From: Egibacteraceae bacterium
Lineage (GTDB): Bacteria > Actinomycetota > Nitriliruptoria > Euzebyales > Egibacteraceae
Reading direction: 5' to 3'
Assembly (NCBI GenBank): GCA_035540635.1
Contig: DATLGH010000049.1
Location: forward strand, 1 to 40,739
DNA: 40,739 bases
Shown: piece after piece, positions 1,195-18,262 of the stretch
Position numbering within the stretch: position 1 is the stretch's first letter
Layout of the letters: the number at the start of each line of letters is the position of its first letter
The notes under the pieces: model-generated
What the model saw: only the letters and a program-made list of their open reading frames with translations
The model's database searches: none
What the model was told of the DNA's origin: nothing
Program-made: the position numbers and the translations under genes

Positions 1195-1686
1195 ATGGAG
1201 TTGAGCACCGAGCCGTACTACCGCGCGGACCTCGCACTCGTGCACCACCTCAAGTTCGGCTCCTACGCCGACCGGTGCGCGCCGGGCATCCTCGCGCTGC
1301 TCGAGCCGGTGCGCCGGCGCGCGGGGCTCGTCCTCGAGCTGGGCTGCGGCAGCGGGCACCTCACCCGCCACCTTGTCGCCGCCGGCCATCGCGTCGTCGC
1401 CACGGACGCCTCGCAGCCCCTGCTCGACCTCGCGCGGGCAGAGCTGCCCGAACCGACCCGGTGGGTACGCGACATCACGACCTTCGTCCGCGGCGGTGAC
1501 GGCACGTGGCGCCGAGCCGACGAGCGGCACGACAACGTCCTCGTCGACACCGCGCGGTTGCCGGCCATGCTCGCGCGGCACGGCGTCGAGGCGGCCGTCG
1601 GGCGCGCGTTCGACAGCCATGCGCTGCCGGACGGCCTCGCCGCGGTCGTTGGCAGGCGCCCCGCCACCGGCGGGAGCGCGCCGTGA
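1195..1686 (+). CDS. Class I SAM-dependent methyltransferase with internal deletion
   Basis: 163 residues. The N-terminus (YYRADLALVHHLKFGSYAD, then LVLELGCGSGHLTRHL) is the usual start of small class I methyltransferases, with the SAM-binding ELGCGSG motif near residue 50 and the acidic ATDAS motif II near 75. Immediately after the DLARAELPEP helix the protein jumps to WVRDITTFVRGGDGTWRRADERHDN, a segment that sits near the C-terminus in full-length relatives of about 240 residues. The reading frame is kept, so about 75-80 residues of the core sheet (motifs III-V) appear to be lost by an in-frame deletion. Activity is doubtful. The stop overlaps the GTG of the DUF72 gene by 4 bases (GTGA). 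Start chosen at ATG 1195; no strong ribosome binding site is visible. Confidence 0.6.
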   Translation: MELSTEPYYRADLALVHHLKFGSYADRCAPGILALLEPVRRRAGLVLELGCGSGHLTRHLVAAGHRVVATDASQPLLDLARAELPEPTRWVRDITTFVRGGDGTWRRADERHDNVLVDTARLPAMLARHGVEAAVGRAFDSHALPDGLAAVVGRRPATGGSAP

Positions 1687-2579
1687 GCGGCCGGCGGCTG
1701 CGGGTTGGCACCGCCTCGTGGACGGATCGCACGCTCACCCAGGAGTCGGACTGGTACCCGTCGCGCTCCATGTCGGCGACCGAGCGCCTGCGGTTCTACG
1801 CCTCGGTCTTCCCCGTCGTGGAGGTCGACGCGACGTACTACTTCCCGCCGACGCCGGACCTCGCCGGCAAGTGGGTCCACCGCAGCCCCGCCGACTTCCG
1901 CTTCGACATCAAGGCCTACTCGCTGCTCACCCACCATCCCACGAAACCCGAGTCGCTGTGGGACGACGTCGCCGGGGGACTGCCTTCGGCGCGCAAGCGC
2001 TCGGTCTACCTCGAGCACCTGCCCGACGCCGCGGTCGACCGGGCGTTCGCGCACTTCCACCAGGCACTCGCGCCGCTCTACTCGTCGGGCAAGCTCGGCG
2101 GCGTGTTCTTCCAGTTCCCGCCCTGGTTCGTCGCCTCCCGGGCGAACCGGCGCTACCTCGAGTCCCTGCCCGACCGGCTGCCCGGCTACCAGGCGGCCGT
2201 CGAGTTCCGGCACGGCAGCTGGCTCGAGGAGGACAGCGCCGCACGCACTCTCGACCTGCTCGAGCGGCTCGGCCTGACGTACGTCTGCGTCGACGGTCCC
2301 CAGGGCTTCGCGTCGTCGGTCCCGCCGGTGACCGCCGTCACCGCCGACCTCGCCGTCGTCCGCCTCCACGGGCACAACGCCGAGAACTGGGAGCGCAAAG
2401 GGATCACCGCGGCGGAGCGGTTCCGCTACCTCTACAGCAGCGAGGAGCTCGCCGGATGGGTCGAGCCGATCCACCGGCTCGCCGACCAGGCGGGCGAGAC
2501 GCACGTGCTGTTCAACAACTGCTACCGCGACTACGGGGTGCGGAACGCGCAGGAGATGAAACGCCTCCTGAACTGCTGA
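1683..2579 (+). CDS. DUF72 family protein, site of element integration
   Basis: 298 residues, full length for DUF72 (YecE-like TIM-barrel proteins of unknown biochemical role). Family signs: VGTASWTDRTL near the start, FPVVEVDATYYFPPTP, DFRFDIKAYSLLTHH, GVFFQFPPWF, AAVEFRHGSW, VVRLHGHNAENW and the C-terminal LFNNCYRDYGVRNAQEMKRLL. Starts at GTG 1683, overlapping the methyltransferase stop. Its last ~65 bases contain a 38-bp sequence repeated exactly at 16653-16690, where the reading frame encodes an alternative DUF72 tail (QQMMRLLTSENTST). The present tail (QEMKRLLNC) was therefore most likely supplied by the integrated element, which restores the gene on insertion. What is seen: the family, the repeat and the two tails. 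Inferred: which tail is original. Confidence 0.9.
   Translation: MSGRRLRVGTASWTDRTLTQESDWYPSRSMSATERLRFYASVFPVVEVDATYYFPPTPDLAGKWVHRSPADFRFDIKAYSLLTHHPTKPESLWDDVAGGLPSARKRSVYLEHLPDAAVDRAFAHFHQALAPLYSSGKLGGVFFQFPPWFVASRANRRYLESLPDRLPGYQAAVEFRHGSWLEEDSAARTLDLLERLGLTYVCVDGPQGFASSVPPVTAVTADLAVVRLHGHNAENWERKGITAAERFRYLYSSEELAGWVEPIHRLADQAGETHVLFNNCYRDYGVRNAQEMKRLLNC
2515..2552 (+). repeat. attL: 38-bp direct repeat, left copy
   Basis: Starts ACAACTGCTACCGCGACTAC and ends GCGGAACGCGCAG; identical over 38 bp to 16653-16690. It lies inside the DUF72 coding sequence, 92 bp before the integrase start codon. Similarity continues imperfectly to about 2571 (GAGATGAAACGCCTCCTGA against CAGATGATGCGCCTGCTGA). 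Upstream of the left copy the DUF72 frame continues normally; upstream of the right copy it does not, as expected for attL and attR. Confidence 0.85.
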
Positions 2580-2643: not shown

Positions 2644-3576
2644 ATGGCCGAGCCGGCGCAAGACCCGCATCCGGACTTCGCGATGCTCGCCACCTCGTGG
2701 GACATGTCCATGGAGGCCGACGGCTACGGCGCCGCCACCCGCCGCGGCTACGGCAAGGCCCTCGGCTCCTTCGTCGCCTGGCTCACCGAGCACTCCCCCG
2801 GCACCGGCCCGGCCACGGTGGTTCGTGACGACGTGCGCGGCTGGCTCGTCGAGCTGCGCCGCACCCGGGCGCAGAACACCGCAAGGACGTACTATGCGGG
2901 CGTCCGCCACTTCTTCCGGTGGCTGCACGCCGAGGGCGAGACCGACCGTGACCCGTGCGAGGGCATCCGCTCCCCCTCCCCCGCCGAGCCGGTGACCGAG
3001 GTCATCGCCGCCGCCGACCTGCGCCGCCTCGTCGAGACCTGCGCTGGCCGCGACTTCGTGTCCCGCCGGGACCGCGCCATCCTCCTGCTGTTCCTCGACG
3101 GCGGCCTGCGCCTCGCCGAGCTCGCCGAGCTTTCCATCGCGGACGTGGACGTGCGCGAACGCATGGTCTACGTCGTCGGCAAGGGATCGGGGCGCAGCGG
3201 CCCCCGCCACCGCGCCGTGCCGCTGGGGATCAAGGCCGCCCAGGCCCTCGACCGCTACCTGCGCGAACGACGACGTCATCCGTGGGCGTCATGCGACGCC
3301 CTGTGGCTGGGGGCTCGAGGACGCGGGCCGATCACGGCGGCGGGTATCAAGAGGATGCTGCAGCGCCGCGGCGAGTCCGTCGGCCTGACGATCCATCCGC
3401 ACATGTTGCGCCACGTGTGGGCGCACGAGTTCCGCGCCGCAGGCGGTAGCGAAGGCGACCTCATGCTGATCGGCGGCTGGAAGTCGAGGGCGATGCTGGA
3501 CCGCTACGGGCGCTCGGCCGCTGCCGAACGGGCCCGCGACGCCGCACGCCGCTACTCCCTCGGAGACCGGCTATGA
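2644..3576 (+). CDS. Tyrosine recombinase (integrase)
   Basis: 310 residues with the normal two-part layout. An N-terminal core-binding SAM-like domain (about 12-105) contains RGYGKALGSFVAWL and TARTYYAGVRHFFRW. The catalytic domain (about 120-300) has the usual residues: Arg156 in DGGLRLAEL, Lys180 in VGKGSG, His253 and Arg256 in HPHMLRHVW, Trp279 in IGGWKS (replacing the second His) and the nucleophile Tyr288 in MLDRYG. It faces away from attL and lies just inside it, as in elements that integrate into gene 3' ends. Starts at ATG 2644 with no good ribosome binding site. It ends in an ATGA overlap with the next gene. Pieces of a close relative lie at about 16.85-17.05 and 19.79-19.87 kb. Confidence 0.93.
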   Translation: MAEPAQDPHPDFAMLATSWDMSMEADGYGAATRRGYGKALGSFVAWLTEHSPGTGPATVVRDDVRGWLVELRRTRAQNTARTYYAGVRHFFRWLHAEGETDRDPCEGIRSPSPAEPVTEVIAAADLRRLVETCAGRDFVSRRDRAILLLFLDGGLRLAELAELSIADVDVRERMVYVVGKGSGRSGPRHRAVPLGIKAAQALDRYLRERRRHPWASCDALWLGARGRGPITAAGIKRMLQRRGESVGLTIHPHMLRHVWAHEFRAAGGSEGDLMLIGGWKSRAMLDRYGRSAAAERARDAARRYSLGDRL

Positions 3577-4228: not shown

Positions 4229-4495
4229 GTGGCCGAATTGACGCCAGCGCGAGCATCACTGCGTGGCCGCATCGCCGCCAACGTCCGCTGGTCCCGCGAG
4301 GACCCGACAGAGAACGTCCGCCGCGCCAATGTCGGCTTCCAGGCCCGCTTCCTCGACGAGGTGGACCCGAACCGGGAGCTCCCCGAGGCCGAGCGTGAGC
4401 GCCGCGCCAAGGCCGCGATGCGCGCCTACATGTGCCAGCTCGCACTCCGGTCCTCAAAGGCCCGCGCCGCCCGAAAGCGTGGTGAGGCGGCGTGA
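4229..4495 (+). CDS. Small mobile-element-associated protein
   Basis: 88 residues, strongly helical and rich in Arg, Ala and Glu, without cysteine clusters or membrane segments. Sequence features such as SLRGRIAANVRWSREDP, ARFLDEVDPNRELPEAERERRA and YMCQLALRSSKARAARK resemble a small protein family widespread in actinobacterial integrative elements and phages; its function is unknown. GTG start at 4229 with a GAAAGG ribosome binding site 7 bases upstream. The stop overlaps the next start (GTGA). It begins a run of genes from 4229 to 9577 joined by short overlaps, so it is probably the first gene of the early operon of this element. Confidence 0.7.
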   Translation: MAELTPARASLRGRIAANVRWSREDPTENVRRANVGFQARFLDEVDPNRELPEAERERRAKAAMRAYMCQLALRSSKARAARKRGEAA

Positions 4496-5580
4496 GGGCA
4501 GAGAAACGCCCGGCGGATGGTCAGGCCGCCGGGCGCAAGTCCTCTGATGTGGGAGCACCAGGACGACCCCAGCCTAGCAGCCGCAACCGACAAGTTGCGG
4601 GAACCGCATACGGCAGGGCCGCCCTCGCCTCCGCCCTCGACCGCATCGAATCCTCCCCGGGAGGCATGCGCCACCGCACCGTGTACGCCGCATCCGCCGC
4701 CGTTGGCCAAGTGCTCACCGGCGGTGAGTTACGCGACGAGACCCCCGTGGCCGCCGCCCTCGAGGCTATGGCCCGCAACATCGGCCTGACCGACAACGAG
4801 GCCGCCCGACAAGTCCGCCGCGGCATTGAACGCGGCGCCACCACCCCGCGAAAGGCGCCCACCGACGGTCGGATGCTGCGGGACGCCGGCGACGCCCGCG
4901 ACCGCCTCGTCGCCTGGTGGGAAGCCGTCGAAGCACACCACCTGACCGGTCGAGGCGCCACGACCACCATGCGGCTGCTCGCCGCGTTCGGACTGCTCGC
5001 CATGCGAGCCGGCAAGATGCGAGTCAGCGAGTCGCACCGCCAACTCGCCGAGGCCGCCGGCGTCAACTCGGGCACCGTCGCCCGCCACCGTGGTCGCCTC
5101 GCACCGTTCGTCCGCGTCGTCGAGCGCGGCAACCGCGCCACCGGCAAACCCACGACGTGGCAGCTCGTCGTTGTGAAGCGTGTCGCATCCCGCACCAACC
5201 CGGAGGGTTCTCCTACCCGGATAAGCGGGTTGGTGCATCATGCGACACCCCTCGGCAGCCCGGCGCATGACCTGTGGTCACGCTGGCCGTCGGGTTGGCG
5301 GTTGTGGACAGTCCTTGATGAGTCCGACGCCGCCACCGTCGCCGAACTCGTGGCCGCGAGCGGCTGTCACCGCTCGACGTGCTACCGGACTCTGCCGCGC
5401 CTGGCCGCACTCGGTCTGGCCGTCACGGACGGCGAAGGCCGTTGGCGTGGCGTCGTGCCGGAAGGCATAGGTGACAGCGGCTTCGTCCGCAGTCGTAAGC
5501 GGGAACGCCACGCGGCAGAACGCGAGGCCTGGGCCGGTTGGCGCCGCCTCGCCCTCGACGAGCGCAGGAGGGCGTCGTGA
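4492..5580 (+). CDS. Replication-associated protein: primase-C-like helices plus winged helices
   Basis: 362 residues, GTG start at 4492 overlapping the previous stop. Residues about 55-118 (GGMRHRTVYAASAAVGQVL, then AALEAMARNIGLTDNEAARQ and VRRGIERG) resemble the small helical domain found at the C-terminal side of bifunctional primase-polymerase and phage primase-helicase proteins. Two helix-turn-helix-like segments follow: SHRQLAEAAGVNSGTVARHRG (about 180-200) and ATVAELVAASGCHRSTCYRTL (about 280-300). No polymerase or helicase motor is visible, so it is more likely an initiator or loader than a full primase. Its neighbours (TOPRIM protein, HTH proteins) support a replication or control module. 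The assignment is inference from partial similarity. Confidence 0.55.
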   Translation: MRAEKRPADGQAAGRKSSDVGAPGRPQPSSRNRQVAGTAYGRAALASALDRIESSPGGMRHRTVYAASAAVGQVLTGGELRDETPVAAALEAMARNIGLTDNEAARQVRRGIERGATTPRKAPTDGRMLRDAGDARDRLVAWWEAVEAHHLTGRGATTTMRLLAAFGLLAMRAGKMRVSESHRQLAEAAGVNSGTVARHRGRLAPFVRVVERGNRATGKPTTWQLVVVKRVASRTNPEGSPTRISGLVHHATPLGSPAHDLWSRWPSGWRLWTVLDESDAATVAELVAASGCHRSTCYRTLPRLAALGLAVTDGEGRWRGVVPEGIGDSGFVRSRKRERHAAEREAWAGWRRLALDERRRAS

Positions 5581-5792: not shown

Positions 5793-6394
5793 CCGCCGAC
5801 TACTACGACTCTGAGGCGACCGATCGTCTGTGGGCGTTCATGGAGCCGCCTCGTGCCACGACGGCTCCCTCGCCTGTGGATGACGACGCTGACCGTTGGG
5901 TGGGTCCGCCGGAGGATGAAGCTCGACGGCTGCGCGACCGGGGTGTCGAGACGGCGCTGAACGCCGCGGACAGCCGAGCTCGTGGCGCGGCCGAGCGTGC
6001 GTTGCGCGAGCTGGCCGAGTCTGGCCGCACCTTCACGTCCGACGACCTGCGCGAGCGCGTCGGCGCGCCCCTGGCGTGTCGCCAGAACGTGCTCGGCGCG
6101 CTGTTTCTGACCGCCGCGCAGTCGGGCCTCATCGAGCGGGTTGGCTACCGACAGTCGACCCGCCGGGAGGCGAGGGGCCGCGAGCTCAAACTGTGGCGCG
6201 GGACGGGCCGGGTGCCTGACGAGCCGGCCTCCTCGAGCCCGACCCCGGCCCCGGCCGCGAAGCCTGCCCCCGCTGCGGGCGTGTGGACCGCCGCCGACGA
6301 GCCCGCGCCGTGCTCGGTTTGCCGCAAACCGGCGTTCATGCGCGACCCGTCGGGGCGACCTCGGCACCGTGCGGCCTGCGGGGGTGGAGCGTGA
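5789..6394 (+). CDS. Winged-helix protein with C-terminal zinc ribbon
   Basis: 201 residues, GTG start at 5789. After an acidic N-terminus, residues about 60-130 form a compact domain (AERALRELAESGRTFTSDDL, then ALFLTAAQSGLIERVGY, RQSTRREARGRELKLW) that looks like a winged helix. A flexible Ala/Pro linker (about 145-170) follows, then a Cys cluster, PCSVCRK at about 176 and HRAAC near the end, which could form a zinc ribbon. Similar proteins sit in replication modules of actinobacterial prophages. It precedes, with a 4-base overlap, the TOPRIM protein, so the two may act together. Function inferred from position only. Confidence 0.6.
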   Translation: MTADYYDSEATDRLWAFMEPPRATTAPSPVDDDADRWVGPPEDEARRLRDRGVETALNAADSRARGAAERALRELAESGRTFTSDDLRERVGAPLACRQNVLGALFLTAAQSGLIERVGYRQSTRREARGRELKLWRGTGRVPDEPASSSPTPAPAAKPAPAAGVWTAADEPAPCSVCRKPAFMRDPSGRPRHRAACGGGA

Positions 6395-7314
6395 GGGCCT
6401 ACACCTCGACCCGTCCTCGCGGCATGGCGCCGTGGCGACCGCAAGCCAAGACGCTCGTGCGGCTCGACCAGGTGCAGGCGGTCCTCGACGAGTACGCCGA
6501 GCACCTGCCGCTGACGTGCAGGCAGGTCTTCTACCGGCTCGTCGGCGCCTACGGCTACCCGAAGACCGAGCAGGCCTATGACCGGCTGACCAACATGCTC
6601 GTGCGCGCTCGTCGCGCCGGGCTCATACCGTTCGACGCGTTGCGCGACGACGGCGCAACCCACGTCGACCAGGCCGGCTACGTCAACGCCGCGCACTTCC
6701 TGCGCAGCGTGCGGGGGGCCGCGCAGTCCTACCGGCGTGACCGCCAGGACCGCCAGCCCGTCGTGCTCGAGCTGTGGTGCGAGGCCGCCGGCATGGCGCC
6801 GCAACTGGCGCGCATGGTCGAGCACTACGGCATCGACGTCTACAGCTCGTCGGGCTTCGACTCGCTGACCGTCAAACACGACGCCGCGCAACGCTTCGTC
6901 CAGCGCGACCGGCGCACCGTGGTGCTGCACGTCGGCGACCACGACCCGTCGGGGCGGGCGCTGTTCGATTCCGTGGCCAGCGACGTCGCACTGTTGGCGC
7001 TCGGGCTCGACCTACCCGAGTGGCTCGTCCCGGAGTTCGTCGAGGTGGCCGTCACCCCCGCGCAGGTCGAGCGCTACGCCCTGCCGTCGTCGCCAGCCAA
7101 GGCGACCGACCGCCGCGGCGGCTGGGAAGGCGGGACCGTGCAGGCCGAGGCGCTGGCACCCGACCAGCTCGCCGCCGAAGTGCGGCAAGCCGTAGAAACC
7201 CGCTTCGACCTCTACCAGCTCGCCAAGGTGCTCGACACCGAGGAGGCCGAGCGCGCCTACCTCGTCGCCGAGCTCGACCGTCTCGCCAGCGGGGAGGTGT
7301 CGGGTGCCCCGTGA
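6391..7314 (+). CDS. TOPRIM protein related to topoisomerase VI subunit A
   Basis: 307 residues from GTG 6391, which overlaps the upstream stop. The N-terminal region has LPLTCRQVFYRLVGAYGYPK, TEQAYDRLTNMLVRARRAGLI, a winged-helix-like segment found in Topo VI A/Spo11-like phage proteins. The TOPRIM core follows: LELWCEAAGMAPQLARM carries the conserved Glu, YGIDVYSSSGFDS is the next strand, and VVLHVGDHDPSGRALF (about residues 185-200) carries the D-x-D metal site. The Spo11-type catalytic tyrosine would be in the YRL segment near residue 49 (FYRL), by analogy only. Such stand-alone proteins may nick, relax or process DNA in element replication. No subunit B (ATPase) gene is nearby, so a full topoisomerase is not encoded here. 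Confidence 0.72.
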   Translation: MRAYTSTRPRGMAPWRPQAKTLVRLDQVQAVLDEYAEHLPLTCRQVFYRLVGAYGYPKTEQAYDRLTNMLVRARRAGLIPFDALRDDGATHVDQAGYVNAAHFLRSVRGAAQSYRRDRQDRQPVVLELWCEAAGMAPQLARMVEHYGIDVYSSSGFDSLTVKHDAAQRFVQRDRRTVVLHVGDHDPSGRALFDSVASDVALLALGLDLPEWLVPEFVEVAVTPAQVERYALPSSPAKATDRRGGWEGGTVQAEALAPDQLAAEVRQAVETRFDLYQLAKVLDTEEAERAYLVAELDRLASGEVSGAP

Positions 7315-7883: not shown

Positions 7884-8086
7884 GCTTCGCACGCCCGATC
7901 AGGGATCCCCTCGACGCCGCCCGCGAGGCCCTCGCCGCCGCCACGGCGCACCTCGAGTGGATCCGCCAGCGGGTGCAGGCCGGCCAGCTCACCGGCCAGG
8001 CGTTGACCATGGCCGAGTTGCGCCGCCACCACGCGCAGCAGCGCTTCACATCCCTCCTCCGCGGCGACGGGGACTCAGCCGCGTGA
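7880..8086 (+). CDS. Small helical protein, second copy of duplicated module
   Basis: 68 residues, GTG start at 7880, ribosome binding site GGGAGGA about 5 bases upstream. The sequence DPLDAAREALAAATAHLEWI, RQRVQAGQLTGQALTMAELR parallels the protein at 7531-7764 in length and helix pattern. The order SWIM-like gene then helical gene therefore occurs twice in tandem. Function unknown; a role as small regulators or adaptors of the replication module is only a guess. Confidence 0.6.
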   Translation: MSFARPIRDPLDAAREALAAATAHLEWIRQRVQAGQLTGQALTMAELRRHHAQQRFTSLLRGDGDSAA

Positions 8087-8505
8087 AGCGCCCCGATCAT
8101 CCGGCCGTCGACGCACTAGCGTTGGCTGTGCGCCTCGCACCGGACGGCTTCGCGCACGAGTTGTACCGGGTGGTCGATTCCTACGTGTCGTCTCTGCGCC
8201 GCGACTTTGGGCGGGCGCACCCGCTCACACACTGGTTGCACCACGCGCTGCGCTGTCGGGCGCTGTCAGGCGCTACTGAGTGCGAACCGTTGCCGGACGC
8301 CGGCGGCGGTCGGGACACTCGCACCATGACGCTGCTACTGACGTACGGCGAGGTCGCCGAAGCGCTGGCGATCAGCAAGCCGCAGGTTCGCCACCTGGTC
8401 AGCGCTGGGGTGCTCCCTGTGCGCTACATCAACTCCGCGCCGCGGATCCACAGGGACGACCTCGAGTCCTACGTGGACGGTCTGCCGATGGAGCGTGCGT
8501 CATGA
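8083..8505 (+). CDS. Excisionase/MerR-like HTH protein with N-terminal extension
   Basis: 140 residues if started at the GTGA-overlapping GTG 8083. The last 59 residues, which could be made separately from ATG 8326, form a classic helix-turn-helix_17/excisionase domain: LLTYGEVAEALAISKPQVRH, LVSAGVLPVRYINSAPRIHR, DDLESYVDGL. The upstream ~80 residues (HPAVDALALAVRLAPDGFAH, ELYRVVDSYVSSLRRDFGRA) are helical and not recognised. Such proteins direct excision or repress transcription in integrative elements. It lies 4.5 kb from the integrase, so an excisionase role is possible but not shown. The choice of start is uncertain. Confidence 0.65.
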   Translation: MKRPDHPAVDALALAVRLAPDGFAHELYRVVDSYVSSLRRDFGRAHPLTHWLHHALRCRALSGATECEPLPDAGGGRDTRTMTLLLTYGEVAEALAISKPQVRHLVSAGVLPVRYINSAPRIHRDDLESYVDGLPMERAS

Positions 8506-9074
8506 GCGTTACCTCCACGCCCCCGACGGTTCGGCGGCGCAACGCTGCCCGACCGTCGGGGGCTGCTGACCGACTCGAGGCGCTACGTGAACGCGCCCGC
8601 GAGGGCGGGATCGTGCATCCCGACGAGCTCGCCGCCGCCGAGGCGGCCGACCGGGTGGAACAACTGCATGCCGAAGGTCAGGCTCGTCGGGCAGCCGAGG
8701 AAGCCCAGGAGCGGCAGCGGCAGGCGGTAGCGGACTGCCAACAGCGCATCGCCGACCTGCGCAAGGGCGAGAAGATGCGTGCCGCCTACATCGCCGCGGT
8801 GGATGCGTTCGCCACCTACGTCGGCGAAGTGCTGGACCGCAACGATGCGATCCGCTCGGACCTACAGACGGCGGAGAGCCTGGGCGTGGCCGTCGCGCCG
8901 GCACTGCGGCCGATCCCGGCCGACTACGCAAGCGCGCTCGCCGTCGGCAAGGCTCTGGACCGCCACCGACGTCGCCTGTCGGGAGCCGAGTCGCACTACT
9001 GGCGGATGGCGCTGGGCGACGGGCACGCCGCCGAACGCCGGGCCCGCGGGGCGCTGACCATGGAGGGGCGATGA
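8502..9074 (+). CDS. Coiled-coil phage/element protein
   Basis: 190 residues, ATG start at 8502 overlapping the HTH gene stop. A long helix (about 25-95), rich in Ala, Glu, Arg and Gln (AADRLEALRERAREGG, EAADRVEQLHAEGQARRAAE, AQERQRQAVADCQQRI), predicts a coiled coil. A helical C-terminal domain (about 96-190) with RAAYIAAVDAFATYVGEVLD and SHYWRMALGDGHAAERRARG follows. Relatives are seen in actinobacterial prophages without known function; some sit where scaffold-like proteins are found. No membrane or export signal. Confidence 0.6.
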   Translation: MSVTSTPPTVRRRNAARPSGAADRLEALRERAREGGIVHPDELAAAEAADRVEQLHAEGQARRAAEEAQERQRQAVADCQQRIADLRKGEKMRAAYIAAVDAFATYVGEVLDRNDAIRSDLQTAESLGVAVAPALRPIPADYASALAVGKALDRHRRRLSGAESHYWRMALGDGHAAERRARGALTMEGR

Positions 9075-9577
9075 GCACCATCGAACGGGCCGTCGCGACC
9101 CGCCGTGCCTACCGCGCCAAGGTCGACGAGATCAAGGCCAGCGACCTGACACCGGGAGCCAAGCGCGCTCAACTCGAGGAGCTCTACCACCGAACGCAGG
9201 CCGAGCTGCGCGGACTGCGCCGCCAGCACGACACCGCGCAGCAGGAGGCGGCTGCCCGCCTGACCCGCCGCCTGTTCGCCGCTCCCGGCAAGCCCGCATA
9301 CCGCGACGCCGTGACGGCTGTGACCGCGCAGGTCAAGACCCGCGATGACTACCAGCTCGTGGCCAGGCAGGCCGAGATCACCGGCGATGACCTGCTCGCG
9401 AAGGCTGCGGCGTCGGTGGCGCACGCCAACGGCTGGAGCCGGGAGGTCAGCGAGTACGCCGAGCGCAGCGGCCAGACCGACACCCTCGACGCCCTGCGCG
9501 CACAGCAGGCCACAGCCAACGACCCGACGCACCGTCTCCACCTGTCGATCGGGTTCAACGTCGCGAGGCCGACGTGA
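9071..9577 (+). CDS. Hypothetical helical phage protein
   Basis: 168 residues, ATG start at 9071 in an ATGA overlap. Mostly helical: RAYRAKVDEIKASDLTPGAK, AQLEELYHRTQAELRGLRRQ, then DDYQLVARQAEITGDDLLAK and ANGWSREVSEYAERSGQTDT. No recognised domain, cysteines or membrane segment. It pairs by overlap with the preceding coiled-coil gene and ends the early operon; the next gene begins 123 bases downstream. It may be an accessory virion or DNA-binding protein, but nothing in the sequence decides this. Confidence 0.55.
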   Translation: MSTIERAVATRRAYRAKVDEIKASDLTPGAKRAQLEELYHRTQAELRGLRRQHDTAQQEAAARLTRRLFAAPGKPAYRDAVTAVTAQVKTRDDYQLVARQAEITGDDLLAKAAASVAHANGWSREVSEYAERSGQTDTLDALRAQQATANDPTHRLHLSIGFNVARPT

Positions 9578-9700: not shown

Positions 9701-10177
9701 TTGCCGCAGAGACGCAAGTCTGAGCACCTGCGGGTGCTGGAGGGCAGTCGCCCGCGCCCCGCAGCACCCAACTTGGGCGGTGGGCTGGGCACCCCCGCGG
9801 CCCCGAAGTGGCTGCCGCGTGTCGGCAAGGCGGAGTGGCGGCGGATCGTGCGGGCGTGCGCGGGTCATCCGACGTGGCTTCAAGAGGTGGACGTGGCGCT
9901 TCTGACTGCCTACTGTGCGACGTGGGCGACTTACCTCGACGCCGCCCGCGACGTGGCCGAGCGGGGCGCGCTCGTGTCGGGCCGCTCGTCGGCGGACAAG
10001 GGCGCGCTGGTCAAGAACCCGGCGGCGCAGATCGCCCGGGACTCGGCGACGCAACTGCGCAACCTCGCCCGCGAACTGGGTTTCAGCCCGGACGCCCGGG
10101 GGCGGGTCGACTTGGGCCAGCGTGAAGCGCCAAGCCGGGATGACCTGCTGTCGGACCCGTGCAGGCCTTTGTCATGA
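9701..10177 (+). CDS. Phage terminase small subunit, P27 family
   Basis: 158 residues from TTG 9701, with GGGGAAGGGG just upstream. The layout fits P27-type small terminases: a basic start with RVLEGSRPRP, the Pro-rich APKWLPRVGKAEWRRIVRAC, VDVALLTAYCATWATYLDAA, the NPAAQIARDSATQLRNLARE helix and LGFSPDARGRVDLG at the end. The protein selects viral DNA for packaging and recruits the large terminase. No large terminase, portal or capsid gene follows. The next recognisable gene is a tape-measure protein 150 bases away, so packaging would have to use another phage's machinery or the module has been deleted. Confidence 0.82.
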   Translation: MPQRRKSEHLRVLEGSRPRPAAPNLGGGLGTPAAPKWLPRVGKAEWRRIVRACAGHPTWLQEVDVALLTAYCATWATYLDAARDVAERGALVSGRSSADKGALVKNPAAQIARDSATQLRNLARELGFSPDARGRVDLGQREAPSRDDLLSDPCRPLS

Positions 10178-10317
10178 GCCCCGACGTGCTCGGTGGCATG
10201 AGGGTGCGGGCCGCAGACGGCCACCCACTACGTGCCCAAGGGGGTTCCCCCGCCGCGGTGCGCCGAGCCGAGTGCCGCGCCGTCGGCGGGGGTCAACGTT
10301 CACCGGCGGGGAGGTGA
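10174..10317 (+). CDS. Possible 47-residue ORF coupled to terS
   Basis: ATG at 10174 overlaps the terS stop (ATGA), and the frame runs to TGA 10315-10317 (MSPDVLGGMRVRAADGHPLR at the start). This is the position where the large terminase gene would begin, but the translation does not resemble a large terminase. It could be the 5' stub of a deleted gene or noncoding sequence. The same stretch holds two strong hairpins, which argues against a conserved protein. Confidence 0.25.
   Translation: MSPDVLGGMRVRAADGHPLRAQGGSPAAVRRAECRAVGGGQRSPAGR
10202..10250 (+). terminator. Hairpin pair between terS and tape-measure gene
   Basis: First hairpin GGCCG-CAGA-CGGCC (10209-10222), extended by outer GGGT/ACCC. 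The second, GGGGG-TT-CCCCC (10239-10250), follows 16 bases later. No U-tract follows, so factor-independent termination is uncertain. This is also where structural genes appear to be missing, so it may mark a deletion join. Confidence 0.35.
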
Positions 10318-10323
10318 CGGCTA

Positions 10324-12330
10324 GTGGCTGAGCGCGTTGTCACGGTTCGATACCGGGCCCTCCACGCGGACTACATGCGTGCCACGCGGGAGATGTCCGC
10401 GTCCACGCAGCAGTTCGGGACGCGGGTGGCGGATGTGACGCGGAAGAACCGCGAGCACTTCGACACGCTCGGCAAGGGCATGGCGGTGGCTGGGACCGCG
10501 ATGGTGGGGTCGGCCACTATGGCGGCCCGGTCGGCTATGCAGTGGGAATCGGCGTTCGCCGGTGTCCGCAAAACGGTTGACGCGACCGAGGGGCAGCTTG
10601 CGGCATTGTCGGGCGAGCTCCGGGAGATGGCCACGCAGATCCCGGTAACCGCGACGGAGCTCGCGGGGATCGGCGAGGCCGCAGGCCAGCTGGGCGTCCA
10701 GACGGAGAACATCGCCGCGTTCACCCGCACCATGGCTGATCTCGGGGTGGCGACGAACATGTCGTCGGACCAGGCGGCCACCAGCTTGGCGCGCTTGGCG
10801 AACATCACGCAGCTTCCCCAGACCGAGTTCGACCGGCTCGGCTCCACGATTGTGAGGTTGGGCAACAACCTCGCTACCACCGAGTCTGAGATCACCGAGA
10901 TGGGGTTGCGGATCGCGGGTGCAGGCGCGCAGATCGGCCTGGCCGAATCCGAGATTCTTGCAATCGGTGGGGCGTTGTCGTCGGTGGGCATCGAAGCTGA
11001 GGCAGGCGGGTCGGCGATCTCGCGTGTGATGATCAACATCGCCAGTCAGGTGGAGACCAGCGGTGACATGCTCGGCGAGTTCGCCCGTGTCGCCGGGACG
11101 TCGGCGGAAGAGTTCGCAGCGCAGTGGCGCGAGGACCCCGCACAAGCCCTCGTCGCGTTCGTGACCGGGTTGGGGGACATGGAGCGGCAGGGCGGCTCCA
11201 CCCTGCAGACGCTCGAGGCGTTGGGGATCACCGAGATTCGGATGCGGGACGCGTTGCTCCGCTCAGCGGGTGCCGGCAGTCTGCTGGCGGACGCGATCGG
11301 CCTGGCGAACGGTGCGTGGAAAGAGAACAACGCGCTGACGCTCGAAGCCGAGCAGCGGTATCAGACCGCCGAGTCCCGCCTGCAGATAGCGCGCAACGAG
11401 ATAACCGACTTCGCCATCGGCGTCGGCGAGAGCGTCCTCCCCGTGCTCGTGGGGGTCGCTGAGGCCGGTGCGGGTCTGGCGGGCGTGCTCGGCGACTTGC
11501 CCGAGCCTGTGCAGAGGGTCGGCGGGGTGGCCACGCTCGCCGCAGGCGGGTTGACCGCGATGGGCGGCGCCGCGCTGCTGCTGCTGCCGCGGGTGGTGGC
11601 GACCAAGGACGCCCTCACCGCTTTGAACATCACGAAAGCCACCACGCTTGCGCGGATGAGCTCGCTCGCGAAGTTCATGATCGGCCCGTGGGGCCTCGCC
11701 GTGGGGGGCGCAACCGCCGGGTTGTACGCCTGGCAGCAAGCCGCAGCAGCCACCGCCGAGGCCATCGCCGAAGTCAACGCGGCCGTCGCGGAAACGTCGG
11801 GGGAGCCGGCGGAGGCATTGCGGGCGGTCCGTGAGCAGTTCGACGCGATCGGCCGCAGCGGCGGGTTCGCCACGGACGTCGGCCGGTTCTTCCGGCAGAT
11901 GATCGGCGGCACCACGCTGGGCACCGAACGGGCGGAGATCTTCGCCGCCGCCGTCGAGACGGTCGGGGAGACGTCGGCGCGGTCGGCGCTCGAGCTGGTC
12001 GAGATGGCCGAGGCTGCGGGGCTGGTCGCCCGCGAGTCCGACGGGTCGGTGACGGCGCTGTCGCACATGGGCGACGCCACCGTGCTGACCGCCATGCAGA
12101 TCGTGAACCTCGGGGCGGCGGCGGAGAAGCAACGCCGCGAGGCCAACCTCGCCGCACAGGACAACAGCGCCCTCGGCGGGACGTTCCAGCAGCTCGGCGC
12201 CGACGCTCACACGCTCGGCGCCGAGCTCGGCGAGACGGGCTCGTTCCTCGACTCGCTGTCCGCCACCGCGAAAGCCGCGATGGAGCCGCTCGCGCACGGT
12301 TTCGACCCGTTCGACCACTACACGAGGTAG
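10324..12330 (+). CDS. Phage tail tape-measure protein, TP901 type
   Basis: 668 residues, GTG start at 10324 with GGGGAGG about 11 bases upstream. The N-terminal ~380 residues have the TP901/PhageMin_Tail pattern: EMSASTQQFGTRVADVTR, GKGMAVAGTAMVGSATMAAR, WESAFAGVRKTVDATEGQLA, LREMATQIPVTATELAGIGE, AAGQLGVQTENIAAFTRTMA and VGESVLPVLVGVAEAGAGLA. Hydrophobic stretches near 400-435 and 445-470 are typical of the membrane-like central region. It measures tail length and helps DNA entry. Most relatives exceed 1000 residues; this one stops early after FDPFDHYTR without the repeat-rich or peptidase C-terminal part, and no other tail gene follows. It is probably a truncated leftover of a tail module. 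Confidence 0.8.
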   Translation: MAERVVTVRYRALHADYMRATREMSASTQQFGTRVADVTRKNREHFDTLGKGMAVAGTAMVGSATMAARSAMQWESAFAGVRKTVDATEGQLAALSGELREMATQIPVTATELAGIGEAAGQLGVQTENIAAFTRTMADLGVATNMSSDQAATSLARLANITQLPQTEFDRLGSTIVRLGNNLATTESEITEMGLRIAGAGAQIGLAESEILAIGGALSSVGIEAEAGGSAISRVMINIASQVETSGDMLGEFARVAGTSAEEFAAQWREDPAQALVAFVTGLGDMERQGGSTLQTLEALGITEIRMRDALLRSAGAGSLLADAIGLANGAWKENNALTLEAEQRYQTAESRLQIARNEITDFAIGVGESVLPVLVGVAEAGAGLAGVLGDLPEPVQRVGGVATLAAGGLTAMGGAALLLLPRVVATKDALTALNITKATTLARMSSLAKFMIGPWGLAVGGATAGLYAWQQAAAATAEAIAEVNAAVAETSGEPAEALRAVREQFDAIGRSGGFATDVGRFFRQMIGGTTLGTERAEIFAAAVETVGETSARSALELVEMAEAAGLVARESDGSVTALSHMGDATVLTAMQIVNLGAAAEKQRREANLAAQDNSALGGTFQQLGADAHTLGAELGETGSFLDSLSATAKAAMEPLAHGFDPFDHYTR

Positions 12331-12335
12331 CCGCC

Positions 12336-13379
12336 ATGACGATGATCTGTGTCAGCGCAGCGCAGGACCACGCCGCCATCATGAGCGACACGCTGCTGCG
12401 CCAGTTCGACAGCCGCAACGCCTGGGTCGCCGAGGACGAGCGCAAGGTCATGGTGCTGCCGGAGATCAACGCGGCGGTCACCGCCCGCGGGCACGCCGGC
12501 ATGGCGCAGGTGTGGGCGGTGATGGCCGCCCGGCGTGCCGGTGAGGTCGCGGACTTCGACGAGTTCACCGAACGCGCCCAGACCATCCTCCTGGGCGTCC
12601 TCACGGCAGCCCGGGAGCGGCCGTGGTACGAGCGGCTCGAGGGCCTCGGCGTGGAGTTCGCCGGTGACCTGTGCGCCTACTTCGTCGGCTGGTCACCCCG
12701 CGCCGGCCGGTTCAAGGCTTTTGCGGCTTGCGCATCCGAGAACTTCAAGCCTGACGACATCTCCGACGAGTTCCACGCCACCCCGGTGCCGCTCGGGGCG
12801 CAGCCCACCGCGGTGGAGCGACGCATCTACGAGCGGATGGGTAACCCGCTGCCTTCCGGCCCGCCCGTCTCGGCACCGACGTCTGTCGGAGAATGGGTGG
12901 GGTTGGCGAAGCGGATTCACCGCACCCGCGCTGTGCGCAGGGACCTCGGTCTCACCCAGGACATGTGGAAAGTGGAGGTCGGCGGGCCTGTCCACCTGAC
13001 CCGTCTCGTGGAGGGCGGCCCTGCCACGCAGCAGCGGATCCACACGTTCGACGCCGAGGACTTCCGGGCCGCGTTCACGGGCAGCTTCCACCCGGTCGGC
13101 CAGCTCGGCCCTTGCCCGTGCCGCAGCGGCCGGCGCTACCTCGACTGCCACATCGCCCTCTGGCAGGACCTGCCGTGCCACTGCGAGTCCGGTGACACCC
13201 TGCGGAACTGCTGCAAGCTCGACTTGGACAGCGCCGAAGCGGTCGAGTGGCTCAGCGAGTACCCCGACCTCGCCCGCCCGGTTCCGCCCCGTCAGGCCAA
13301 GGTCGGCCGCAACGAGCCCTGCCCGTGCGGCTCAGGCGTGAAGGCGAAGAAGTGCTGTCTGGTCGGGGCGGCTGCGTGA
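12336..13379 (+). CDS. Protein with Ntn-hydrolase-like start and three SEC-C-like zinc motifs
   Basis: 347 residues, ATG start at 12336, 5 bases after the tape-measure stop. The C-terminal third has three Cys clusters in a row: GPCPCRSGRRYLDCH (about 262-276), LPCHCESGDTLRNCC (about 282-297) and the canonical SEC-C motif GRNEPCPCGSGVKAKKCC at the end. The N-terminus (MTMICVSAAQDHAAIMSDTL, then KVMVLPEINAAVTARGHAGM) resembles proteasome/HslV-like Ntn-hydrolase proteins of unknown role, with a S-D-T segment where those proteins have a conserved turn. SEC-C motifs bind zinc and often tether SecA, ribosomes or other partners. Seen: the motifs. Inferred: the N-terminal fold. No tail function is evident, so it may be cargo rather than virion. 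Confidence 0.65.
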   Translation: MTMICVSAAQDHAAIMSDTLLRQFDSRNAWVAEDERKVMVLPEINAAVTARGHAGMAQVWAVMAARRAGEVADFDEFTERAQTILLGVLTAARERPWYERLEGLGVEFAGDLCAYFVGWSPRAGRFKAFAACASENFKPDDISDEFHATPVPLGAQPTAVERRIYERMGNPLPSGPPVSAPTSVGEWVGLAKRIHRTRAVRRDLGLTQDMWKVEVGGPVHLTRLVEGGPATQQRIHTFDAEDFRAAFTGSFHPVGQLGPCPCRSGRRYLDCHIALWQDLPCHCESGDTLRNCCKLDLDSAEAVEWLSEYPDLARPVPPRQAKVGRNEPCPCGSGVKAKKCCLVGAAA

Positions 13380-14179: not shown

Positions 14180-14644
14180 GTGGACGCCCTGCGCCTTCAC
14201 CGCGAGCCGGACCTCGGCGAGGCGCTCCCTCCCGTTGCCCCTGAGTGGTACGAGGACGCCGCCTGCGCCGACATGGACACCGAGGCGTTCTTCAACGAGA
14301 CGGCCAAAGGCGTGGCCGAGGCCAAGGCGACCTGCGCCGGCTGCCCCGTGCTCGAGGCGTGCCGCGCCGAGGCGATGGCCGATCACAGCTTGGCCGGCGT
14401 GTGGGGCGGCTGGACGGAGCACGAGCGCGGCGAGGTCCGCGCCGGCCGCGAACCCGTGGACCGCCCCCGCCGCAGCGTCGCTCAGGCGCGCCCTGAGCGC
14501 CCCCGGGGGGAGCTGCAGCCCTGCGGGACGCCTGCCGCCTACACCCGCCACCGACGGCGCGGCGAGCCCGCCTGCGAGGCGTGCCGGGAGGCCAACAGGC
14601 GGAAGGTCCGGGAACGCCGCCAAGGCAGGCAAGCGGCCGCGTAA
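14180..14644 (+). CDS. WhiB-family iron-sulfur transcription regulator
   Basis: 154 residues, GTG start at 14180. The four cluster-binding cysteines are present: Cys in DAACADMD (about 33), the C-x-x-C pair in ATCAGCPVLEAC (about 56 and 59) and the following Cys (about 65). The family turn GVWGGWTEHER follows. The C-terminal extension carries QPCGTPAAYTRHRRRGEPAC, EACREANRRK, a second Cys-containing module common in WhiB-like proteins of actinobacteriophages. WhiB proteins hold a 4Fe-4S cluster and act with the principal sigma factor. Phage-borne copies can alter host gene control and superinfection, but its targets here are unknown. It ends the rightward genes of the element. Confidence 0.85.
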   Translation: MDALRLHREPDLGEALPPVAPEWYEDAACADMDTEAFFNETAKGVAEAKATCAGCPVLEACRAEAMADHSLAGVWGGWTEHERGEVRAGREPVDRPRRSVAQARPERPRGELQPCGTPAAYTRHRRRGEPACEACREANRRKVRERRQGRQAAA

Positions 14645-14671: not shown

Positions 14672-15022
14672 TCAGCCGGGCAGCGTGATGACCGGAACCT
14701 GGCCAACAGGGCCTACGGGCAGCGGCTTGGTCTCTGACGCCGCACAGTCGCCGCACAGTCGGAAACCCCAGTCGTGCACGCCGACGGGGACGCGGCCGGG
14801 CGGCATCCCGCAGCTCGTGGAGACGATGGCGGACGCTTGCTCGCTCGGAATGCCGAACCCGCCCATCAGGAAGGCGATCGCGGCCTCGGCCTCCCCCCTC
14901 ACCGCTATCGCGGTGTCGGTGCCGCGCAGGCACACCACGCAGCTGTTCCTGTAGTCGCCTCGGAGTCCGGGCGCGGGCATTGGATCGGGCAGACCTCCCT
15001 GACCGACTCTGGGGTGTGGCAT
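14672..15022 (-). CDS. Hypothetical CxxC protein, last gene of the leftward cargo group
   Basis: 116 residues, ATG at 15022 with a perfect AAGGAGGG ribosome binding site 6 bases upstream, which decides the start over an overlong frame beginning at 15421. Two Cys pairs, NSCVVCLRG (about residue 29) and LCGDCAA (about 93), with a further Cys between them (STSCGMPPG), suggest a zinc-binding fold. The C-terminal strand-rich tail LPVGPVGQVPVITLPG is Gly/Pro/Val-rich. It is separated from the four-gene run upstream by a terminator hairpin, so it may have its own promoter in the short gap. Function not recognised. It converges with whiB, 27 bases apart. Confidence 0.6.
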   Translation of the reverse strand: MPHPRVGQGGLPDPMPAPGLRGDYRNSCVVCLRGTDTAIAVRGEAEAAIAFLMGGFGIPSEQASAIVSTSCGMPPGRVPVGVHDWGFRLCGDCAASETKPLPVGPVGQVPVITLPG

Positions 15023-15057
15023 GGTGACCCTCCTTCTGCGGTGCAACATTGTGACCG

Positions 15058-15087
15058 AACGGCCCCGAGCCGAAGCCCGGGGCCGTT
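15058..15087 (-). terminator. Strong hairpin terminator of the leftward cargo operon
   Basis: AACGGCCCCG (15058-15067) and CGGGGCCGTT (15078-15087) form a perfect 10-bp stem with a 10-base loop, 18 bases beyond the stop of the gene at 15105. There is no long U-run, as is common in high-GC actinobacteria. Confidence 0.65.
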
Positions 15088-15104
15088 GTGGAGCGATTGG
15101 GCGG

Positions 15105-15584
15105 CTACTCGTCGCCCTCCCCGAAGACGATGCGGCTGATGCGGCCGAGCGGGCCCTGTTGGCGCACTGTGTCGACGCGGATGATGGACCCTTCGCGCTC
15201 CAAGTCGTCGACCGCCTCGTTGAGCATCCTGCAGAACGCCACCACTTCAGGCTCGTAGTCGTCGATGCCCGGCCCGGACAGGCCGTACCGCTCGAAGGTC
15301 TCCGGGTGCTGTTCCCCCTCGACGGCGTGCTCGGCCCGCAGCGCCATCGCCGACAGCAGCACATCGACCTCCCGCAGGCCGCAGGCCTCCACAAGGTCGA
15401 GGTCGAGCGACTCGAGGTCATCCTCGGTCGCCAGCGACGGGTACCGGTCGCTCGTCCAGTCCTGCCGCAGCCGCCGGAGGCGGTCGGTCAGCTCCAACAC
15501 GGCCTCGTGGACGGCGCGGGCGAAGGGCAGGAGCTCGTCGGCCTCGGCCCGCAGATGCGCGGGGATGCGGTCGGTGTCGGTCAC
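15105..15584 (-). CDS. Acidic helical hypothetical protein
   Basis: 159 residues, GTG at 15584 overlapping the upstream gene's stop (GTGA). Acidic and helical: IPAHLRAEADELLPFARAVH, EAVLELTDRLRRLRQDW, LESLDLDLVEACGLREVDVL, VVAFCRMLNEAVDDLEREG, ending in the strand IIRVDTVRQQ and ISRIVFGEGDE. No known domain, signal or membrane segment. It is the fourth and last gene of a tightly overlapped leftward run that starts at 16517 and ends at the hairpin at 15058-15087. Function unknown. Confidence 0.6.
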   Translation of the reverse strand: MTDTDRIPAHLRAEADELLPFARAVHEAVLELTDRLRRLRQDWTSDRYPSLATEDDLESLDLDLVEACGLREVDVLLSAMALRAEHAVEGEQHPETFERYGLSGPGIDDYEPEVVAFCRMLNEAVDDLEREGSIIRVDTVRQQGPLGRISRIVFGEGDE

Positions 15585-15835
15585 GACGCCACCCGCTTGC
15601 CCTTGTCGGCGATGTACTCCAGCGTGCCTGCGGCGGCGTCCAAGGCCAGGGCGACCTCAGCGAGCGTGTGCAGGTACGGGCCCATCTCATTGAAGCCGTC
15701 GGCACGGCCGATGTACTCCGTCATGGCTGCCAGCACCTTCGCCAGCCGGCCGTGGTCTTCGCGCAGGTCGGTGATGACCTCGCCTTGTCGGAACTCGTCG
15801 ATCTCGACGACCTGTGTGATGTCGGTGTCGGTCAT
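15581..15835 (-). CDS. Small acidic hypothetical protein
   Basis: 84 residues, ATG at 15835 overlapping the preceding stop. After a short start (TDITQVVEIDEFRQGEVITD) it is a single helical bundle segment: DHGRLAKVLAAMTEYIGRAD, then LHTLAEVALALDAAAGTLEY. It shares the general acidic, helical character of its neighbours but is not clearly a paralogue. Function unknown; third gene of the leftward cargo run. Confidence 0.6.
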   Translation of the reverse strand: MTDTDITQVVEIDEFRQGEVITDLREDHGRLAKVLAAMTEYIGRADGFNEMGPYLHTLAEVALALDAAAGTLEYIADKGKRVAS

Positions 15836-16182
15836 CGTGTGCCCTCCCCGTCCTCGTCGAGCCCCAGCAGCTTCGCCGAGCGCTCCATCGCCGCATCGAG
15901 GCGCCGTCGGTTCTCCGCGACGGCCTCGTCGCGGATAGAGCGCAGGACGGCGAGCGCGTCGTCCACGAAGGCGACGACGTTGCCCGGCGCGGCCGTGTCC
16001 CGGTCGCTGTCGTACAGGACCGCCAGCACGTCGGCCAGCATGTCCGTCAGGTCGGCGTGCGCGTGGACGAGCGGGCTGCCGGTGTGGTCGGACAGGCGGC
16101 CCTTGAGCTGCGCGAGGAAGGCGTCCATCGCCTCGTAGCGCGCCTCCTCGTCCCGGACGGTGGTGGTGTCGGCGGCCGTCAC
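15832..16182 (-). CDS. Acidic helical protein, paralogue B of the cargo operon
   Basis: 116 residues, GTG at 16182 overlapping the upstream stop. The C-terminal half, DTAAPGNVVAFVDDALAVLR and DEAVAENRRRLDAA, matches the same region of the neighbouring protein at 16179-16517 almost residue by residue, so the two genes arose by tandem duplication. The N-terminal half (MDAFLAQLKGRLSDHTGSPL, HADLTDMLADVLAVLYDSDR) is also helical. No catalytic motif. Function unknown. Confidence 0.62.
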   Translation of the reverse strand: MTAADTTTVRDEEARYEAMDAFLAQLKGRLSDHTGSPLVHAHADLTDMLADVLAVLYDSDRDTAAPGNVVAFVDDALAVLRSIRDEAVAENRRRLDAAMERSAKLLGLDEDGEGTR

Positions 16183-16517
16183 GACGCACCCCCTTCCTCG
16201 GCTGCGTCTGCACGCCGCCGGGACTCGGTGACGGCCTCGGCGCGCAGGTCGTGCAGCACGCCGAGCAGCCTGTCGAGGAACGCGACCACCTGCCCGGGCG
16301 CTGCGGTGTCCCCGTCGCCGCTCTCGTGCAGCGCGTTCAACATGTAAAGGATGACGTCGGCGGTCGACTCGGCGGCGGTGCCGAGGTCGTCGGTGACGGT
16401 GCCGATGTCGCCTGTCCTGTCGGTGATGCGTGCGACGAGCTCGTCATGGCGGCTGCTGACCCGCTCGTAGCGCGCCAGCTCCTCCGGTGTCAGCTCGTCG
16501 GCTATCGTGTTGCTCAT
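16179..16517 (-). CDS. Acidic helical protein, paralogue A, first gene of the cargo operon
   Basis: 112 residues, ATG at 16517 with GGAAGGGGA 6 bases upstream, which fixes the start against an upstream in-frame extension. Helical and acidic: LTPEELARYERVSSRHDELV, ITDRTGDIGTVTDDLGTAAE, then DTAAPGQVVAFLDRLLGVLH and LRAEAVTESRRRADAA, the segment shared with paralogue B. It begins a four-gene leftward operon located just inside attR, a usual place for cargo. Function unknown; there is no toxin, nuclease or defence motif to support a specific role. Confidence 0.62.
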   Translation of the reverse strand: MSNTIADELTPEELARYERVSSRHDELVARITDRTGDIGTVTDDLGTAAESTADVILYMLNALHESGDGDTAAPGQVVAFLDRLLGVLHDLRAEAVTESRRRADAAEEGGAS

Positions 16518-16652: not shown

Positions 16653-16690
16653 ACAACTGCTACCGCGACTACGGGGTGCGGAACGCGCAG
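16653..16690 (+). repeat. attR: 38-bp direct repeat, right copy
   Basis: Identical to 2515-2552. Upstream sequence differs completely from the DUF72 gene, while downstream it continues as a DUF72 C-terminal coding end. The interval 2515-16690 is therefore the integrated element plus one repeat copy. Confidence 0.85.
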
Positions 16691-16732
16691 CAGATGATGC
16701 GCCTGCTGACCTCGGAGAACACGTCCACATAG
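16653..16732 (+). pseudogene. Displaced 3' end of a DUF72 gene
   Basis: Reading NCYRDYGVRNAQ through the repeat and then QMMRLLTSENTST to a stop at 16730-16732, this is the C-terminal tail of a DUF72 protein without its body. It represents either the original chromosomal tail or the tail brought by an earlier element. It has no start of its own in the family frame and is not expected to be expressed. Confidence 0.75.
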
Positions 16733-16849
16733 TGCGCGTTTACGCTGGCACAGCGCTTCTGGTCCCGGCAACGTTCGGCCCTATGGCGCCCGACACACTC
16801 ACCACTCTCATCCTCTGGGGTGGGCGCCCAGCCCATGGGATGCTGAGTC

Positions 16850-17629
<780 letters not shown>

Positions 17630-17633
<4 letters not shown>

Positions 17634-18106
17634 GAGCGGCGCCCCCCCAGGCGAACTCCCAGGAGTGCGGCGCCGAAGCCCGCCGTGATGCTGCCGAGCG
17701 CATAGCCGACCGCGGCACCCGTCTGGTTCGTGCCTGCAAGACGGGCGATCTCGACCGCGAAGGTCGAGAAGGTTGTGTAGCTGCCCAGCATGCCCGTGCA
17801 GAACAGCGGGATCGTCAGCGTCGTCCGCGGCGCCGCGTGCAAGAAGCGGGTGAGCAGGTAGCCGAGCAGCAGCGAGCCCGAGACGTTCTCGACGAACGTC
17901 GCCCACGGCCACGCCCCGTCCAGCGGCAACGCCACGGCGACAAGACCGCGAAGCGCTGTGCCCACGGCTCCACCGACGGCGATGGCCAGCCGCCGGCGCC
18001 ACGGCAACGGCAGGCGGCGTCGCGCCCACCGGCGGGGACGGCTCAGCAGGCGAAGGAGCAGATACCGTTCCGCGCCGTCGGGGTGGATGTGACCGTCCTG
18101 CGCCAC
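17630..18106 (-). CDS. crcB: CrcB/Fluc fluoride channel, first subunit
   Basis: 158 residues from GTG 18106, chosen because an AGGAGG ribosome binding site (18118-18113) lies 6 bases upstream. The longer frame starting at 18208 would translate the riboswitch. After a basic N-terminal extension of about 35 residues (RLLSRPRRWARRRLPLPWRR), it has four membrane helices with AVGGAVGTALRGLVAVALPL, ENVSGSLLLGYLLTRFL and the signature FCTGMLGSYTTFSTFAVEIA. It exports fluoride and pairs with the downstream crcB. The start site lies in a region that can pair with the end of the fluoride aptamer, so translation is expected to be switched by fluoride. Confidence 0.92.
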
Positions 18107-18130
18107 TTGATGGCCTCCTGGGCGTCGCAC

Positions 18131-18190: not shown

Positions 18191-18262
18191 GGCGAGGCTA
18201 GCGCCCACGCGAGGCCGCGAGCTAAAGGGACATCCGGCAGCCCGCCGAACGGCTCCGCGGCA

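Follow-up and report, generated by a model that had tools for sequence, protein, structure and literature searches.

A stand-alone small terminase and a short tape-measure protein in a 14.1-kb integrated element: a candidate PICI-like satellite in a high-GC genome

The closest described counterparts of the locus analyzed here are phage satellites and reduced prophage-like islands. PICIs are given a size range of 10–15 kb (PMC11364771), and the small terminase (TerS) of SaPIs redirects the packaging of the helper phage (PMC10690885). In Vibrio cholerae, the PLE satellites have a gene for a tape-measure protein (TMP) of their own, which is placed into chimeric tails, and a PLE without its TMP loses ~96–99.9% of transduction (PMC12987554); predicted tmp genes are also present in some cf-PICIs (PMC12987554, Extended Data Fig. 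10). Among the Actinomycetota, candidate mycobacterial PICIs and phiRv-like elements are reduced prophage-like islands with an integrase and part of the virion genes, the candidates being defined by a major capsid protein (PMC10654092); the word "tape" is absent from the main text of that paper.

The element described here resembles Gram-positive PICIs of the SaPI type in having a terminal integrase, candidate genes for regulation and replication and a stand-alone TerS within ~14 kb, without a large terminase (TerL) or a capsid set, but differs from them in encoding a TMP, in lacking recognised capsid-size or TerS-interference genes, in having no known helper and in its high-GC host. Two features by which a TerS-type PICI is known, an integrated element of ~10–15 kb with an integrase and attachment repeats (here 14.1 kb, 38-bp repeats and an intact integrase) and a TerS unaccompanied by TerL, portal, capsid or lysis genes, are present. 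Like PLE1, PLE4 and PLE11, the element encodes a TMP, which in the PLEs substitutes for that of the helper; the PLEs, however, reside in Vibrio, pair their TMP with a tail chaperone and have a contractile-tailed helper, whereas here the TMP is paired with TerS and a chaperone is not recognised, and only the TMP idea is common to both. From the entire capsid and packaging set of the cf-PICIs (own capsid, portal, protease, TerS and TerL) the element has TerS alone, and, although it is comparable to the reduced mycobacterial islands, it is without the major capsid protein that defines those candidates.

The window, that is the whole stretch of DNA that was analyzed, is one entire contig of 40,739 bp from a 3.46-Mb draft genome of 110 contigs. 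It contains a discrete element of 14.1 kb, inserted at the 3′ terminus of a DUF72 gene and bounded by 38-bp direct repeats (Table 1). The last codons of the DUF72 gene in the window come from the element: its terminus reads NAQEMKRLLNC, against NAR..LG.LLGEGLQ or similar in relatives, and the native DUF72 genes of related genomes end in other peptides (e.g. NARQLGELLGEGLQPGA). Because the native ends differ from that in the window, the element must replace the end of the gene with one that it brings along, which is usual for integrating elements. The integrase begins 64 bp past the DUF72 stop codon.

Table 1. Features of the element and its attachment sites (window coordinates).
Feature	Coordinates	Strand	Evidence or remark
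DUF72 host gene; 3′ end is the integration target	1506..2579	+	PF01904 E=4.2e-60
attL core, 38 bp, identical to attR	2515..2552		direct repeat D3
Tyrosine integrase, 310 aa, intact	2644..3576	+	PF00589 E=3.3e-24; 56–61% identical to integrases of L103, L162 and L163
Small conserved gene near integrase (int-neighbour gene), 88 aa	4229..4495	+	52% identical to L163 counterpart
Probable replication/regulatory protein	4492..5580	+	tblastn to phage primases E=2e-5; HTH_29 E=4.9e-6
Topoisomerase-like protein, GDHDPSG (TOPRIM-like) motif	6391..7314	+	phrog_6247 E=1.9e-32
HTH_17 (excisionase/AlpA-type) DNA-binding protein	8083..8505	+	PF12728 E=4.8e-7, over Pfam cut-off
Charged protein, overlapping start of next gene	8502..9074	+	gene call; no significant family in Pfam and PHROGs
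Protein directly upstream of terS	9071..9577	+	gene call; one weak match in 296 genomes of phylum
P27-type TerS, 158 aa, without TerL partner	9701..10177	+	Pfam Terminase_4 PF05119 E=6.3e-21; phrog_83 E=6.4e-27, nearly whole protein
146-bp spacer, TerS to TMP	10178..10323		GGGGAGGTGA = ribosome-binding site for TMP; coding remnant not recognised
TMP, 668 aa	10324..12330	+	phrog_13339 E=2e-131; PhageMin_Tail E=1.8e-23
SEC-C zinc-motif protein; start 5 bp past TMP stop	12336..13379	+	PF02810 E=1.3e-12
WhiB-type regulator, resembling phage WhiB proteins	14180..14644	+	PF02467 E=7.2e-19; phrog_12112 E=1.8e-24
Right-end group, five small genes, two alike	14672..16517	-	gene calls; translations
attR core; ACAG directly before	16653..16690		repeat D3; ACAG = element-derived arm
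Remnant of older integrase of same family, immediately beyond attR	16836..17051	+	49% identity match; repeats D1, D2

The genes between 4229 and 9577 form a near-continuous chain, mostly overlapping and without pseudogenes. The int-neighbour gene that opens it is kept in ~60 loci of the integrase family, and its product is possibly an excision or integration accessory factor; the protein carries the motif RAxxLRKAHFxxLALRSAxAR. PICIs carry a replication initiator or primase gene; the next gene here encodes a product with likeness to part of phage primases only, plus winged helices. PICI regulators typically stand in a divergent arrangement; an HTH_17 protein that could answer to the AlpA/Stl-type regulator is present, but its arrangement is not divergent. 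The SEC-C protein downstream of the TMP was considered as a TerL since phrog_13702 carries the label "terminase large subunit", and was rejected because the match covers only the first 143 aa (E=5.5e-7), Pfam gives no terminase domain and the protein is too short. Its N-terminal start reads like an Ntn-hydrolase, an unconfirmed impression, and a single-sequence fold was discarded (pLDDT 39). Defence-system matches in PADLOC were weak or confined to the zinc motif, and were likewise set aside. In the right-end group, two adjacent similar small genes (15832–16517, minus strand; 116 and 112 aa) apparently arose by tandem duplication. The WhiB gene, together with a GC content of ~72%, suggests a host among the Actinomycetota. 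No close relatives of the topoisomerase, the SEC-C protein or the genes upstream of terS were found, and the interior genes have only distant homologues in phage records, IMG/VR and 100–300 related genomes per query.

A previous sequence-only reading of this locus had described a P27-type small terminase followed after about 150 bp by a shortened tape-measure protein, and had seen neither a large terminase nor portal, capsid, further tail or lysis genes in the 14 kb; our searches bear out each part of this description. The small terminase is recognised as P27-type by both Pfam and PHROGs, and the TMP gene follows on the same strand after 146 bp. Among the scanned proteins of 2.6–16.5 kb, Pfam and PHROGs recognise no structural or lysis gene besides TerS and the TMP, and the TMP is the only called gene long enough to hide an unrecognised TerL or portal. 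As a control, an iterated TerL profile was run on 80 IMG/VR loci with TerS relatives and on two annotated phages: it places TerL within 2.5 kb downstream of TerS in all 80 loci and in both phages, and by the same profile TerL is missing near TerS from the window and from one reduced relative described below (L220). Nowhere in the assembly is there a PF03354 TerL, nor was a second copy of TerS found in it, and, as judged by PF03354 TerL only, no helper phage is visible. TerS alone as an IMG/VR query gave no confirmed relative. TerS and TMP lie ~8.3–9.9 kb apart in ordinary phages (L011, L012, prophiT36-2a and AGM15), as against 146 bp in the element; remnants of terL, chaperone or tail genes were recognised neither in 10178–10323 nor just past 12330. 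The tblastx matches of the 146-bp spacer were GC-rich only and fell in scattered places, and we regard them as noise. The otherwise tight gene chain is broken on the two sides of terS, by 123 and 146 bp.

That the TMP is shortened becomes clear when it is set against its nearest high-GC homologues (L013–L015 and L018; 70% GC), which measure 948–958 aa and are thus ~280 aa longer. The alignment is strong to about residue 500–510 and then fades, and the C-terminal HGGEV...GE region of the homologues is missing. A length of 668 aa is within TMP size, the small phages of the DUF72 site having TMPs of ~336–573 aa that belong to another family, and the gene retains its reading frame and coding bias and is preceded by a strong ribosome-binding site. 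Among the genes of the element, none was recognised as a tail chaperone.

Relatives of the integrase in IMG/VR lie near the ends of many prophages, and the nearest (55–61% identity) include other DUF72-targeting elements: L162/L234, L163, L233/L165, L235 and L103, the last being a DUF72-site element within a bacterial genome. The element-derived ACAG arm is found too at attP of L162, L163 and L165/L233, and the DUF72 3′ end with the attP arm CAGACAACTG is a recognisable site by which members of a single integrase family, from reduced elements to more complete phages, can be compared. We searched IMG/VR and 396 genomes of the phylum with a pattern on the element-side attachment arm, CAGACAACTGYTAYNNNGACTWY; just six IMG/VR contigs and two of the 396 genomes contain it, this genome being one of the two. 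The copy in the second genome (G267 contig C36, 2436–2458; locus L240) suggests that this contig holds another DUF72-site element, cut by the contig end. Small siphophages with structural modules account for four of the six arm-bearing contigs (L233, L234, L235 and L237); the fifth is L163 and the sixth L236.

The siphophages of the DUF72 site (L162/L234, L233, L235 and L237) use the same attachment site as the element and have short TMPs; the integrase family is common to the element and L162/L234, L233 and L235, where the contig covers the integrase, and the int-neighbour gene to the element and at least L162/L234 and L235. Within the reach of each contig, these phages carry TerL, portal, capsid and tail genes; none has a P27 TerS and their TMP is of another type, so that they are not the parent of the element. 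In L233, portal and capsid genes lie on one strand and terL on the other. The sequence-only reading held that a complete prophage with both flanks in common would refute a satellite: on the left flank, the attachment site and the integrase are indeed shared with phages that have structural modules, but the interior and right-hand genes are not, and phage records, IMG/VR and 100–300 related genomes per query yielded no complete phage with the interior of the element.

Two further elements of the integrase family are themselves reduced. L163 (1–9089 of a ~9-kb contig) has the DUF72 site in common with the element, its integrase and int-neighbour gene being 57% and 52% identical, and carries an integrase, the int-neighbour gene, a replication protein, a capsid, two small genes and a TMP, followed by a minus-strand ORF. 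Its sole recognised head gene is an HK97-type capsid (PF05065, E=2e-22) and its TMP has 576 aa (PF20155, E=1.7e-32); TerL, portal and tail-tip genes were not recognised in the contig, and no tail gene was called after the TMP. As attP lies inside its contig, L163 comes from a non-integrated form; that it is a complete satellite is no more than a possibility, the contig having attP inside but open ends. A small circle would be consistent with the minus-strand ORFs close to its two ends. L220, a 7.6-kb contig, has a more distant integrase (41%), a replication initiator and two different adjacent P27 TerS (4311–5312) without TerL, and is possibly a satellite of 5–6 kb; a LuxR-type regulator follows the TerS pair on the other strand. 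The conserved set without capsid genes that was expected among relatives of a satellite was not found as such: L163 and L220 are reduced too and belong to the same integrase family, but their gene sets are not that of the element.

We favour, at about an even chance, the explanation that the element is a PICI-like satellite that gives its own TerS and short TMP, its sole virion genes, to a helper phage, over a prophage reduced by deletion. This preference is based on the near-gapless genes without pseudogenes and on the fact that satellite TMPs are now documented (PMC12987554), as well as on the two large losses that deletion needs, both with clean gene ends and with no remnants recognised at the junctions; in addition, none of the known phages of the site is the parent, and the integrase family includes two more elements that are reduced. 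The size within the PICI range, the intact attachment repeats and integrase, the TerS without the TerL that accompanies it in all 80 related loci, and the preserved frame, coding bias and ribosome-binding site of the TMP speak for it as well. Against it stands the TMP itself, in which the C-terminal part seen in homologues is missing and beside which no chaperone is recognised, whereas the PLEs have both TMP and chaperone; no second element with the pair was found, and no helper phage is visible in the assembly by PF03354 TerL. In the proposed mechanism, induction of or infection by a helper phage would lead the element to excise at DUF72 by means of its integrase and an excisionase, for which the HTH_17 protein is a candidate, and then to replicate. 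TerS would bind element DNA and recruit the TerL and portal of the helper, as in the staphylococcal islands, so that helper heads would be filled with element DNA. The element's TMP would replace or compete with the helper TMP in tail assembly, as in the Vibrio PLEs, and either yield chimeric tails or hold back the helper's own; with its C-terminal part missing and no chaperone recognised, the TMP may instead have a blocking role. The TerS–TMP pair itself may stem from a deletion in an ancestral prophage and have then been retained. More tentatively, the element could represent a high-GC satellite lineage that seizes two helper checkpoints, the choice of DNA through TerS and tail length or injection through the TMP, with sisters such as L163 supplying capsid and TMP instead; we consider this wider proposal possible but doubtful.

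A defective prophage is a serious alternative, although we place it short of an even chance. Here a siphophage at DUF72 would have lost two blocks, one of ~8.5 kb between terS and the TMP and another reaching from the 3′ part of the TMP through the distal tail and lysis genes, and what is left would be undecayed and have no virion role. TerS followed by TMP on one strand is the canonical order, found 8.3–9.9 kb apart in the phages named above; the C-terminal truncation relative to L013–L018, the gaps on either side of terS, the use of the same integrase and site by small phages with structural modules, and the single copy of the element all agree with it, as does the degraded older integrase adjoining attR, which indicates that elements decay here. 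On the other hand, at least two large deletions are required, all with clean gene ends, including the 5-bp join between the TMP and the next gene; terL, chaperone and tail-gene remnants are unrecognised at the joints, and the known phages at the site have no P27 TerS and another TMP type, and hence are not the parent. The sequence-only reading had taken the tape-measure fragment as pointing to a deleted prophage. This premise is weakened by the Vibrio PLEs, satellites whose own TMP goes into chimeric tails (PMC12987554); a TMP would have spoken for a prophage before that work, but no longer does so. Deletion is nevertheless plausible, the order and strand of TerS and TMP being canonical. Satellite and deletion are also compatible with each other, as pruning of a prophage can give rise to a satellite, and both stay proposals because the exact TerS–TMP pair is present in one genome only, no second element with the same pair having been found.

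It is improbable, in our judgement, that the element is a satellite or immunity island whose short TMP acts as an interference factor, titrating tail chaperones or capping the tails of a helper or invader, and is not part of satellite virions. Conservation of the N-terminal region with loss of the C-terminal one is what a dominant-negative protein would predict, and satellites and prophages are known to disrupt tail assembly through Tai (PMC11364771) and Rta (PMC12987554), but neither of these is a TMP fragment. A chimeric integrative element with chance-acquired phage genes, or a join made in metagenome assembly, would suit a 110-contig draft genome and a single known copy, but the smooth frames, GC and coding bias through the junctions and the match of both att sites make it very unlikely.

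If the element is a satellite, it carries satellite tail manipulation, which to date has been shown in Vibrio PLEs only, into a distant group of bacteria and couples it to TerS-based packaging control; if it is a deleted prophage, it is a caution against calling satellites from a lone TerS.

The site seems to have been used before. We infer from the integrase remnant beyond attR that an older element had occupied the DUF72 site and that the present one sits in front of it. The attR copy continues into a second non-native DUF72 3′ end, NAQQMMRLLTS, and a 41-bp piece at 19819–19859 matches the C-terminal part of the integrase at 88%, so that the remnant of the older element spans 16653–19860. 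Between the N-terminal integrase piece (16836–17051) and the 41-bp piece lie CrcB-like (fluoride channel) genes and an amino-acid permease-like gene.
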